Assembly: GCA_023511795.1 (NCBI GenBank)
Contig: JAIMAU010000003.1
Span: forward strand, 186,001-250,000
DNA from: Armatimonadota bacterium
GTDB taxonomy: Bacteria > Armatimonadota > UBA5829 > DTJY01
Direction of reading: 5' to 3'
DNA length: 64,000 nucleotides
In this document: piece after piece, positions 17,114 through 21,091 of the stretch
Position numbering within the stretch: the first letter of the stretch is position 1
Layout of the letters: each line of letters starts with the position of its first letter
Translations under genes and position numbers: made by a program
Notes under the pieces: generated by a model
What the model was told of the DNA's origin: nothing
What the model saw: only the letters and a program-made list of their open reading frames with translations
Database searches by the model: none

Positions 17114-18172
17114 TCAGTACCTCCCGTACTTTTCCAACAACTCAATCGCATATCGGTAGTTGTCAAACGAGACTGTCGGGGGAACGGAGTGGTCTGAATG
17201 GAAGATGTACCCGCCGCCTTTCATGGCAATCGGGACCTTGCTGGAGATTTCCTCCTCAATGTCGGCTTTAGTGCCGGAGAGCTTTCGAATGTCGATGTTG
17301 CCGAAGAGCGTAATTTTATTCCCATAAAGTTCCTTGAGCACCCGGACATCCTGGCCGCACTTCGCCTCAAGCGGCTGAATCGCCGCAAATCCTGCCTCAA
17401 TTAGCTTCGGAATCAGCGCCTCGATTTTTCCACATGAGTGCAGTATAACCGGCTTGCCGTGGGAGTTAAAGAAATCACACATGCGCTTGTGTGCTGGCCA
17501 AAGTAGCTGTTCATAACATTCCGGCGAAAACAGCGTAGAATTCCGATATCCCATATCGCCATACATCCATGCGCCATCAAAATCTAGCCCCATATCGAGA
17601 ACCTTTTGCGCTAGGGCAATCTGAAGGTCGGTGTAAGTGTTAAAAACATCGGCAACTACTTTGGGCTCATCCATCATTAGCATAAAGATATTAACCTGAC
17701 CAAAAACTGGCCACGCACACTCATACGCCTCTATGCCAGCGTAGTGGACGAATTTCTTTTTTGCCCGTCCCGCTTCATAAACCTCGCGGATATTTGCTGG
17801 TATGCGTACTTCATCTGGTGTTAGACGCTCTTTATACTCATACCAATCTCTTGCAGTTTGGACGGTATGCGCAATCCAATGGGGCGTATGACCAGATTCG
17901 CGTTTGACATCTTTTCTAGTTACACCATTAGCATCCTTTTGAAGCACGTATTCATCTGTATCCTCATAAATCTCGACAGGCAATCGCAAACTCATATCCA
18001 TCCATGGCAGACTGTGGAAGTCAAAACCAAAAAGCTCGGATATGTCCTGACCCTCCTCAAGACCCTGGGTTTTCCAAAGTGCAAGCGTTTCACTCCACAG
18101 CGATTCCTGCCTGCCAACCCTGTCCGGGATACCGCCTTTAAGCGTCGTGAGAATCCTCTCGCGCGAATCCAT
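17114..18172 (-). CDS. Uroporphyrinogen decarboxylase family protein (methyltransferase-like)
   Basis: 352 residues of the URO-D fold. It retains HSCGK (His245, Cys247) and Cys272 (EAKCGQD), the His-x-Cys...Cys zinc set of the MtaA/CmuA-type cobalamin methyltransferases; true HemE has no such site. The probable reaction is methyl transfer between a corrinoid protein and a thiol, or demethylation of a substrate, in the cytoplasm. No corrinoid protein is encoded nearby. Such URO-D-like genes are often found with sugar-catabolism genes in Armatimonadota and Planctomycetes-type genomes. A good AGGAGG ribosome binding site precedes the ATG. Confidence 0.82.
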   Translation of the reverse strand: MDSRERILTTLKGGIPDRVGRQESLWSETLALWKTQGLEEGQDISELFGFDFHSLPWMDMSLRLPVEIYEDTDEYVLQKDANGVTRKDVKRESGHTPHWIAHTVQTARDWYEYKERLTPDEVRIPANIREVYEAGRAKKKFVHYAGIEAYECAWPVFGQVNIFMLMMDEPKVVADVFNTYTDLQIALAQKVLDMGLDFDGAWMYGDMGYRNSTLFSPECYEQLLWPAHKRMCDFFNSHGKPVILHSCGKIEALIPKLIEAGFAAIQPLEAKCGQDVRVLKELYGNKITLFGNIDIRKLSGTKADIEEEISSKVPIAMKGGGYIFHSDHSVPPTVSFDNYRYAIELLEKYGRY

Positions 18173-18181
18173 AAACTGCCT

Positions 18182-18281
18182 CCTGAGTAAACATGCTCAA
18201 GTTTAACCGTTCTCTGTAAATATGGCCTATCCCCTTCAGCAAACGAAAGCATCAAAAATGCTAATTTTCACCTGAGTAAAC
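18182..18281 (-). repeat. 11-base direct repeat in the URO-D-like gene leader
   Basis: On the minus strand GTTTACTCAGG occurs at 18281-18271 and again at 18192-18182, 89 bases apart. The second copy runs into the ribosome binding site (CAGGAGG). The pair may be operator half-sites or an RNA element; chance cannot be excluded. Confidence 0.35.
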
Positions 18282-18390
18282 CTATAAGGTAATAATACCA
18301 TCTTAAGAATTAATTGCAAATTCCTTGGGACAACCAAGAGATTCACATACCAAATCTTACAAGAAAATGGAATAATACTTATGGAACGCG

Positions 18391-18431
18391 AAAAAGAGGG
18401 GCACAGAACTTGGTTCTGTGTTCCTCTTTTT
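18391..18431 (+). terminator. Strong hairpin with U-tract
   Basis: AAAAAGAGGGGCACAGAAC (18391-18409) pairs with GTTCTGTGTTCCTCTTTTT (18413-18431), loop TTG. Two pairs are G-U on the plus strand but would be A-C mismatches on the minus strand. T-rich sequence follows on the plus strand. No plus-strand gene precedes it, so it either ends a small plus-strand RNA or, despite two mismatches, the minus-strand transcript of the beta-helix gene. Confidence 0.7.
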
Positions 18432-18438
18432 TCTTTTT

Positions 18439-18553
18439 GGCATGGAGGCCGAAAAGCCTGCCGGGGCCCAGCGAAAGGGGTTCCGGATCCCCCTTTCCCC
18501 GGCAGCTTACTCGAAAGCTGGTACCGCGTCTCCTACCGCACGGCCTCCGTGCC
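18439..18553 (+). ncRNA. Candidate structured RNA or palindromic element, unidentified
   Basis: A closing helix pairs GGCATGGAGGCC (18439-18450) with GGCCTCCGTGCC (18542-18553), 12 pairs with one U-G on the plus strand (C-A mismatch on the minus). Inside, CTGCCGGGG (18458-18466) pairs with CCCCGGCAG (18497-18505), and AAAGGGG (18474-18480) with CCCCTTT (18490-18496). CAGCTT (18503-18508)/AAGCTG (18515-18520) and GCACGG (18538-18543)/CCGTGC (18547-18552) are alternative hairpins that compete with the first two helices. TGGTACCGCG (18519-18528) matches the core of the T-box sequence, but no plus-strand gene follows. It does not match RNase P, tmRNA, SRP or 6S RNA signatures that I know. Identity unknown; a small mobile palindromic repeat is the alternative. 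Confidence 0.45.
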
Positions 18554-18616
18554 ATTGTTATGTAGCACATAGGCCTCGGAGGAGGCGGAACACAGCAAAC
18601 TACCGAGGACACCCAA

Positions 18617-19891
18617 TTATTTTCCTGTGCGGCTCACGTTCATGCTTATCTGCACATCACCTTTGCTTTGATTTTCTATTTTCTGCGGGCCAGCCAAGGT
18701 ATTTCCAATGATTGTGGCTGTCTTTACATCAGGACCAAGTTTGATTTGGTTCAAGTCACGCCCGAACCTGCAGGAATGAATTGCGATACTGCCTTTTGTT
18801 GCTTCCAGCGCCGGCGTACCATTATTCATCCTATCCCACACTTGGAAATTGCACTGAGAGAAGCTTACGAAGCCGTCGCCTGCCATTTTAGCAATTTGCT
18901 GAGTTGGACCCCAGAAGGCACAGTTAGAGAATTGGGCGACTCCTGTAAATCCAGGTACGACCTCAATTTCAGCATCGGCAATATCTGCCCCAACAAACTC
19001 GCCATTAGTGAAGAGAAGTCCCGGCTCTTGAGTCTGTTCAATTAGCACTGCAGTTCGCGCCCAATCAACGCCACACCCAAGGAAGTTTCCGTTACAAGCT
19101 CCGTTTTTGCTAGCGTAAAAGCGCATTCCAACTTTGCACCCGTAGGAAAAAGTGTTAAGCACATATTCCCAATCTGTGCGCCCGAACTCAAAAGCAGTAC
19201 AATTTTCCAGAAGGTAATTTCGCAAGTCTTGCCATGTGGGTATTCCCTCAACCTCGGCACGCATCCAATGGTGAGGGTTGAAGTGGACATTCTCAATGCG
19301 CCCGATATCGGCGCATTTATCTACCGCAATGCCTATTTTAAGCGGACAACCAAATACATTGCGGATATAGTGAAGCTCATTCGGCTCGGTTGCAAAATCG
19401 ATACCTTTGTATGAATTGACAAGTGTCACATTGATTACGCTGCAGTGCATTCCATACCCCCTAATTGTCCAAGGGTAAGGTTTCACGCCAGGAATTCTCT
19501 GCATAGGATAAAAGAAAGTCATTCCCTTAATTCCACTACTTGGCGAGAGAGTCACAAGTGCTGGGCCGTCTTCCTTGCCTCTATCGGCATAGGCAAGTAT
19601 CACAGTGCCCTTCAAAAGCTGGGCGTGGTGTGGCGCTTCCCACTCGCCTGCGAGCATAACACCGGAAGGCACGGTAATCGGTTTTGAAAGCTTATATTTT
19701 CCCGCAGGTAGCTTCACAGTGCCGCCGCCATTTGCCGCACAGGCATCGAGCGCCTTTTGAATCGCCGCAGAATCATCTACCTTACCATCTCCCTTTACAC
19801 CAAATTGCTTTACATCGAGCATATTTACCGCAGATGATCCAATTGCCATACACAATAACGTGCTTATTGTTAGCAACCCATAAATACTCAT
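18617..19891 (-). CDS. Secreted pectate-lyase-like right-handed beta-helix protein
   Basis: 424 residues. A signal peptide (about 1-21, ending SSAVN) precedes the Pectate_lyase_3 motif DVKQFGVKGDGKVDDSAAIQKALDA (shown at about 26-50), then a beta-helix rich in short Asn/Gly/Val repeats. Proteins of this type act on polysaccharides outside the cell as lyases, GH28/GH55-like hydrolases or binding proteins. I cannot place catalytic residues with certainty. AGGAGGG lies 7 bases before the ATG. A minus-strand TATAAT at 19916-19911 is a likely -10, without a good -35. Single gene with the structured region downstream. Confidence 0.75.
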   Translation of the reverse strand: MSIYGLLTISTLLCMAIGSSAVNMLDVKQFGVKGDGKVDDSAAIQKALDACAANGGGTVKLPAGKYKLSKPITVPSGVMLAGEWEAPHHAQLLKGTVILAYADRGKEDGPALVTLSPSSGIKGMTFFYPMQRIPGVKPYPWTIRGYGMHCSVINVTLVNSYKGIDFATEPNELHYIRNVFGCPLKIGIAVDKCADIGRIENVHFNPHHWMRAEVEGIPTWQDLRNYLLENCTAFEFGRTDWEYVLNTFSYGCKVGMRFYASKNGACNGNFLGCGVDWARTAVLIEQTQEPGLLFTNGEFVGADIADAEIEVVPGFTGVAQFSNCAFWGPTQQIAKMAGDGFVSFSQCNFQVWDRMNNGTPALEATKGSIAIHSCRFGRDLNQIKLGPDVKTATIIGNTLAGPQKIENQSKGDVQISMNVSRTGK

Positions 19892-20158: not shown

Positions 20159-21091
20159 GTGCAGGAACCCATTTCGAAGTATTTCCGGGTGGGGCTTATA
20201 CACCCCATGGCATATCCTTCGGTTATCAAGGGCGAAGGCCCAATTCTTGAGACATTAGAAAAAATCTTGGAGGATGATTACTTCAGTGCTGTCGAAGTAA
20301 CATGGATAAAGGATAAGAAAGTTCGAGCAGAAGCCGCAAAGATGCTAAAGACTGCCCACGTCGAGGTAGTTTTCGCCGGACAACCGCCACTTCTCACACA
20401 AGGGCTTGACCTCAATGCGGCCGATGAAGCTGCTCGGAAGCGTGCAATTGACCAAACTAAGGATTCTGTGGATCAAGCTTACGAACTCGGCGCCCACCTA
20501 GTTGCCATCCTGAGCGGGCCAGACCCCGGAGATGCAGATAGAGCTAATGCAATGAACCGACTAGTAGATTCGCTTTGCCAAATCTGCGATTATGCAAAAG
20601 CCCAGCGGCAAGAAAATCCGATATACATTTCACTCGAAACATTCGACCGTACCATTGAAAAGAAGTGCTTGATTGGTCCAACAAAAGAAGCTGTCGAGCT
20701 GGCAAAGCGTGTTAAAAAAGAGTGTTCAAACTTCGGTCTCACTATAGACCTCAGCCATCAGCCGCTACTCTCGGAGTCAATTTCTGAGATGGTAAGAGGA
20801 GCATCTGAGTATCTTATTCACGCTCATATGGGCAACTGCGTAATGCGCGACCCCTCGAATCCCGCTTATGGAGATGCACATCCTGCATTTGGCTGTGACT
20901 TAGGCGAGAACGATGTGAATGAGGTTGCTGAATACCTTCGTTGCCTGATGGATATTGGCTTTTTCAACAAGCAACTTCCGACAGGAATGGCAGTAGTCAG
21001 CTTTGAGGTCAAACCACTTCCTGGCGAGAGTTCAGAGCTTGTAGTAGCTGGCGCAAAGCGTGTTCTAAACGAGGCATGGGCGAAGATATAA
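20159..21091 (+). CDS. Sugar isomerase/epimerase-like TIM-barrel protein
   Basis: 310 residues from GTG with AGGAGGT 9 bases upstream. AP endonuclease 2/xylose-isomerase-like fold: ISLETFD (about 161-167) supplies the first metal Glu, TIDLSHQPLL (about 198-207) the Asp and His, HAHMGNC (about 222-228) the His pair, and VSFEVKP (about 280-286) the last Glu. The role is probably isomerisation or dehydration of a sugar or inositol derivative (IolE/IolI-like by context). It precedes iolB by 21 bases in the same operon, so an intermediate of inositol or uronate catabolism is the likely substrate. Confidence 0.8.
   Translation: MQEPISKYFRVGLIHPMAYPSVIKGEGPILETLEKILEDDYFSAVEVTWIKDKKVRAEAAKMLKTAHVEVVFAGQPPLLTQGLDLNAADEAARKRAIDQTKDSVDQAYELGAHLVAILSGPDPGDADRANAMNRLVDSLCQICDYAKAQRQENPIYISLETFDRTIEKKCLIGPTKEAVELAKRVKKECSNFGLTIDLSHQPLLSESISEMVRGASEYLIHAHMGNCVMRDPSNPAYGDAHPAFGCDLGENDVNEVAEYLRCLMDIGFFNKQLPTGMAVVSFEVKPLPGESSELVVAGAKRVLNEAWAKI

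Follow-up and report, generated by a model that had tools for sequence, protein, structure and literature searches.

Between two co-directional minus-strand genes of an Armatimonadota genome lies a GC-rich spacer with competing hairpins. A preliminary description had singled it out as the best local candidate for a new RNA or a palindromic mobile element. The question is whether it is either of these, a relative of the T-box, or the folded end of a transcript. Positions are those of the window, i.e., the whole 64,000-nt stretch of DNA that was analysed.

Fold of the spacer element and its gene context

The element is flanked by a beta-helix gene upstream and a UROD-like gene downstream (Table 1). 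Read along the minus strand, the beta-helix gene is followed by the element, the terminator hairpin, a promoter-like site and the UROD-like gene. The stop of the beta-helix gene (18617) lies 21 nt ahead of the 18595 end of the element, and the UROD-like gene starts (18172) 218 nt past the terminator hairpin. The plus strand past the element is antisense to the beta-helix gene. That no plus-strand gene follows downstream, as stated earlier, holds in that the first one starts at 20159; on the minus strand, by contrast, the UROD-like gene follows.

Table 1. Features of the element and its neighbourhood (window positions).
Feature	Positions	Strand	Remarks
Bidirectional intrinsic-terminator-like hairpin, 20 pairs	18390-18432		T-tracts on both sides
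GC-rich block closed by helix P1	18438-18554		18439-18451 with 18541-18553, plus T-A at 18438/18554
Nested hairpin P2 + P3	18458-18505		P2: 18458-18466/18497-18505, 9 perfect pairs, CTGCCGGGG/CCCCGGCAG; P3: 18474-18480/18490-18496, 7 perfect pairs, AAAGGGG/CCCCTTT
Unpaired stretch of the P1 model	18506-18540		holds TGGTACCGCG (18519-18528) and substitutions 18506, 18507, 18509
Small GCCTC/GAGGC hairpin	18573-18586	-	sister species keeps the minus-strand pairing only (G-U)
CUGUGUUCC, candidate anti-terminator strand	18587-18595	-	9 nt, all complementary to the 5' arm of the terminator on the minus strand (18416-18424); would enclose P1
Pectate-lyase-like right-handed beta-helix protein gene	18617-19891	-	upstream gene; PF12708
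UROD/MtaA-CmuA-like protein gene	17114-18172	-	downstream gene
Promoter-like TTTGCA-17-TATTAT with TG extension	18292-18320	-	between terminator and UROD-like gene

The structured element was confirmed to be real. First, the terminator hairpin forms on the plus strand with adjacent G-U pairs (-27.4 kcal/mol, 3-nt loop), followed by TTTTTTCTTTTT with the T-tract T6CT5. On the minus strand, it contains an A-C double mismatch (-21.4 kcal/mol) and is followed by CTCTTTTTCG. The stable stem-loop followed by a U-tract corresponds to an intrinsic terminator, and since a T-tract follows in either direction, the hairpin is terminator-like on both strands. Second, P1 closes a 115-nt block (18439-18553); its plus-strand form has 13 pairs, including one U-G, and T18438-A18554 adds a fourteenth. 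Local alternatives using its closing strands are AGGC/GCCT near 18446-18459 and GCACGG/CCGTGC at 18538-18552. Third, the fold is more stable than that of shuffled sequences. Region 18384-18612 had a z-score of -6.4 on either strand, and the block without the terminator (18434-18612) one of -3.8/-3.9; in both cases, none of 200 shuffles was as stable. A stem of at least 13 pairs occurred in 2.3% of shuffled blocks.

The helices of the preliminary description were recovered. The hairpin with U-tract given there as 19 bp and the 12-pair closing helix of the 115-base block form 20 and 13 pairs on the plus strand, respectively, while the two nested perfect helices, the alternative helices competing for the P1 closing strands and the GCCTC/GAGGC hairpin were found as described. 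The wobble pairs said to form in two helices on the plus strand only are those of the terminator hairpin and P1.

In a fold scan covering 0.85 Mb of the same genome, the element ranked eighth for excess stability and is, at this rank, strong yet not unique. The strongest and fourth strongest folding regions of the scan were tandem palindromic repeats (L094:1251-1410 and L100:2401-2590 on contig C1 of this genome, G000) with units around GTACAAAACTTTTGTAC and TACCATCGGATGGTTGGCGTG.

Distribution, conservation and strand

The element is present once in its genome, where the copy-number search proposed earlier revealed no dispersed repeats of it, and once in the sister species G001. Searches of 28 genomes of the class and 291 of the phylum with blastn and with R1, a covariance model made from two very close sequences, found it outside its own genome only in this sister species, at the same locus. 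An Rfam 15 search, likewise proposed earlier, gave no family at gathering score. Permissive E-values gave sub-threshold matches only, e.g., to Corio-PBP (24.6 of 63.5 bits) and, on the minus strand, to the Moco riboswitch (RF01055; 19.6 bits versus a gathering score of 36). The weak Moco match, however, stood alongside comparable matches to unrelated families, and neither neighbour is a molybdenum-cofactor gene.

Phage and plasmid collections contained no meaningful match to the element. Core pattern scans returned 66 GTDB and 22 viral (IMG/VR) contigs with a short exact match, none of which was supported by R1. Short DNA matches outside the genus were attributed to chance: at 13 inspected loci, nearly all lay in long open frames and none showed the block structure. 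Matches of R1 in genomes G155 (21.4 bits) and G007 (16.6 bits) were unconvincing.

Between the two sister species, region 18384-18583 differed by 4 substitutions in 200 nt (P about 0.02), three of which lie in the unpaired positions 18506-18509. All bases of P1, P2 and P3 are identical, and the terminator stem is unchanged, with a T-tract longer by one T. The 98 core paired bases carried no substitution, compared to 5.1% in other spacers (P 0.006). In the small hairpin, G18584A converts a plus-strand C-G pair to C-A and a minus-strand G-C pair to G-U. Overall constraint on the element is modest: 10% of the 200-nt windows across the locus were conserved to the same degree. A chance GC-rich spacer with no function besides the terminator would accord with this modest conservation and with the several spacers of the genome that fold equally strongly, but it is hardly probable in view of the z-score of -3.8 for the block without the terminator and of the 98 out of 98 unchanged core paired bases. 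A conserved small ORF spanning the whole element was rejected: the sister species carries two indels, near 18427 and 18597, and a frame running across them would be shifted.

The evidence for the transcribed strand is split: the G-U pairs of the terminator hairpin and P1 point to the plus strand, while G18584A and the gene context point to the minus strand. An independent plus-strand non-coding RNA would make use of these G-U pairs. It is nevertheless improbable, because no good plus-strand promoter was found (the best was a 9-of-12 match at 18267-18296), the terminator hairpin would come before the block with no convincing plus-strand terminator behind it, and the small hairpin is broken on the plus strand in the sister species. 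Structured, genus-restricted and without a known family, the element is best described as an orphan cluster of intergenic hairpins that includes a bidirectional terminator.

Readings as transcript end, attenuator or T-box

The reading that we tentatively favour, with confidence just short of even, is that of a transcript-end hairpin cluster between co-directional genes, which would terminate and probably protect the upstream beta-helix mRNA. Minus-strand RNA from the beta-helix gene would cross the GC-rich block (18595-18438), folding at once into stable hairpins, and transcription would halt at the bidirectional terminator-like hairpin (18432-18390). Transcription of the UROD-like gene would then begin at its own promoter. 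The terminator hairpin may insulate both genes, including against plus-strand transcription, and the GC-rich block would probably shield the beta-helix mRNA from 3' exonucleases.

Several observations point to a transcript end: the gene order and spacing, the hairpins with their excess stability, the T-tracts on both strands, the promoter-like site, the sister-species conservation with 0 of 98 core changes, two similar single-copy clusters and the folding of the orthologous spacer in genome G003 (see below). Against it count the G-U pairs in the terminator hairpin and in P1, which form on the strand opposite to the beta-helix gene, a block far more elaborate than termination requires, and the modest conservation. 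Like bidirectional intrinsic (Rho-independent) terminators, the hairpin at 18390-18432 has a long stem, a short loop and an A-tract/T-tract on both sides, and other long stems of this kind, with T-tracts, rank among the top folding sites of the genome. Unlike in such terminators, a 117-nt GC-rich nested block lies here between stop codon and terminator.

Alternatively, the element may be a minus-strand attenuator or riboswitch-like leader of the UROD-like gene. In this case, CUGUGUUCC (18595-18587) would pair with the terminator 5' arm (18424-18416) as helix P0, closing a P0-P1-P2-P3 stack and excluding the terminator. The perfect 9-nt complement, a feature picked after inspection, had a shuffle frequency of 0.0096; P1 lies nested within P0, and each of the two is incompatible with an alternative long minus-strand hairpin; and the terminator precedes a gene on the same strand. 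However, the enforced P0+P1 fold was about 21 kcal/mol weaker than the MFE, and the promoter-like site of the UROD-like gene itself lies in the 218 nt between terminator and gene start. No shared leader was found upstream of seven UROD-like orthologues (one with only 80 nt of upstream sequence), and R1 was absent elsewhere in the class and phylum genomes. An attenuator is decidedly improbable. Very unlikely is its fuller form, a genus-restricted structured RNA that would toggle on the minus strand between the long hairpin with terminator and the P0-P1-P2-P3 anti-terminator stack and so control read-through from the beta-helix gene to the UROD-like gene.

The preliminary description had also noted a sequence identical to the T-box core. 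The TGGTACCGCG decamer is indeed present on the plus strand, and it occurred in 7% of 64-kb shuffles. A relation to T-boxes did not stand: no match to the Rfam T-box (RF00230) was obtained even at an E-value of 10, AAGC instead of AGGG precedes the core, the terminator lies on the wrong side, i.e., upstream, and no gene follows. T-box identity was therefore refuted on anatomy, a T-box or T-box fragment has next to no probability, and the resemblance is most simply a chance coincidence of 10 nt. Two genuine T-boxes of the genome scored 115.2 and 106.8 bits and show AGG(G)TGGTACC(G/A)CG, then CGTCC and a terminator. These leaders are located at L260:1501-1801 and L261:1501-1843 (C1). A third T-box candidate (C10:86649-87072), with a canonical antiterminator core, scored 60.8 bits, which is below the cut-off.

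Possible mobile origin and comparable hairpin clusters

Genome G003, from the same family, has the beta-helix and UROD-like genes as neighbours with their order preserved, and the spacer of roughly 200 nt between them folds strongly (z -4.2). This orthologous spacer harbours a GTAG-tagged REP doublet (REPIN) at L055:4738-4862 (C26:19737-19861 of G003). While a REP/REPIN family is active, a related RAYT (Y1) transposase is expected in the genome. Y1 transposases (PF01797) are encoded in G003 and G017, and no match to PF01797 (Y1_Tnp) was obtained in the genome of the element or in the sister species. The repeat yielded 31 matches by DNA and 45 by model in G003, 37 by model in G017, one in G004 and none in the two sister species. 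Read on one strand, the G003 repeat has GTAG ahead of a palindrome and is made up of two halves in inverted orientation, which is the anatomy of GTAG-tagged REP doublets (PMC3733652, PMC3116915).

The element shares with GTAG REP/REPINs (Di Nocera 2013, PMC3733652; Bertels and Rainey 2011, PMC3116915) the position 3' of a gene, a length of about 115-120 nt, and a long closing helix with nested hairpins. It differs from them in being single copy, in lacking a GTAG tag at the hairpin foot (none was seen on either strand of 18438-18595 by inspection), in the absence of the transposase from its genome and in lacking a match to the REP-doublet model. With filters off, its best model score was 3.9 bits, compared to 120-134 bits for the G003 copies used to build the model and down to about 27 bits for weaker copies. 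At this score, it is not a member of the REP-doublet family. The evidence supports the view that the element sits like a REP doublet; it does not back the claim that it is one.

Because the genome lacks such repeats and a Y1 transposase and the element is unlike the REP-doublet family, present-day mobility is unsupported. Of the initial proposal, the conserved structure without Rfam match was upheld, within one sister species only; a new RNA is a possibility, and the mobile element was not supported. A mobile origin is not absurd, since a REP doublet occupies the same spacer in a genome of the same family. On this view, a MITE- or REPIN-like palindromic mobile element would have lost its mobility and been domesticated into intergenic hairpins, while its source family vanished from the genus. 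This alternative is unlikely but not negligible. The 14-nt terminal inverted repeats (93% complementary) flanking a 117-bp unit argue for it, as does the G003 spacer, filled by one of about 45 REP-doublet matches in a genome with a Y1 transposase. The single copy, the missing Y1_Tnp, the low REP-model score and a core more conserved than neighbouring spacers argue against it, and no target duplication was seen. The G003 doublet hints that spacers of this kind may take up hairpin elements again and again, from different origins.

At least two further hairpin clusters of the genome lie a short way downstream of genes, are single copy and are conserved in the sister species. Among five family genomes, each was found in the sister species only. 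At L095:17318-17445 (C1:297318-297445), a very stable nested GC-rich cluster, rank 2 of the fold scan, follows the stop of a cation-efflux-like gene at a distance of about 30 nt. Differences from the sister species fall in its flanks and loops and spare the helix core, and its wobble pairs point to the upstream gene's strand, unlike those of the window element. At L081:15105-15250 (C1), three strong GC-rich hairpins are located between a TPR-rich gene, about 45 nt after its stop, and a secreted-protein-like gene. Given the similarity of these clusters, the window element belongs to a class and is no isolated curiosity. Thus, a striking, well-folded orphan element can fall in an ordinary class, namely single-copy hairpin clusters 3' of genes in two sister species only. 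The cation-efflux-like gene at L095 carries a NiCo riboswitch (RF02683, L095:16278-16363) at its 5' end.
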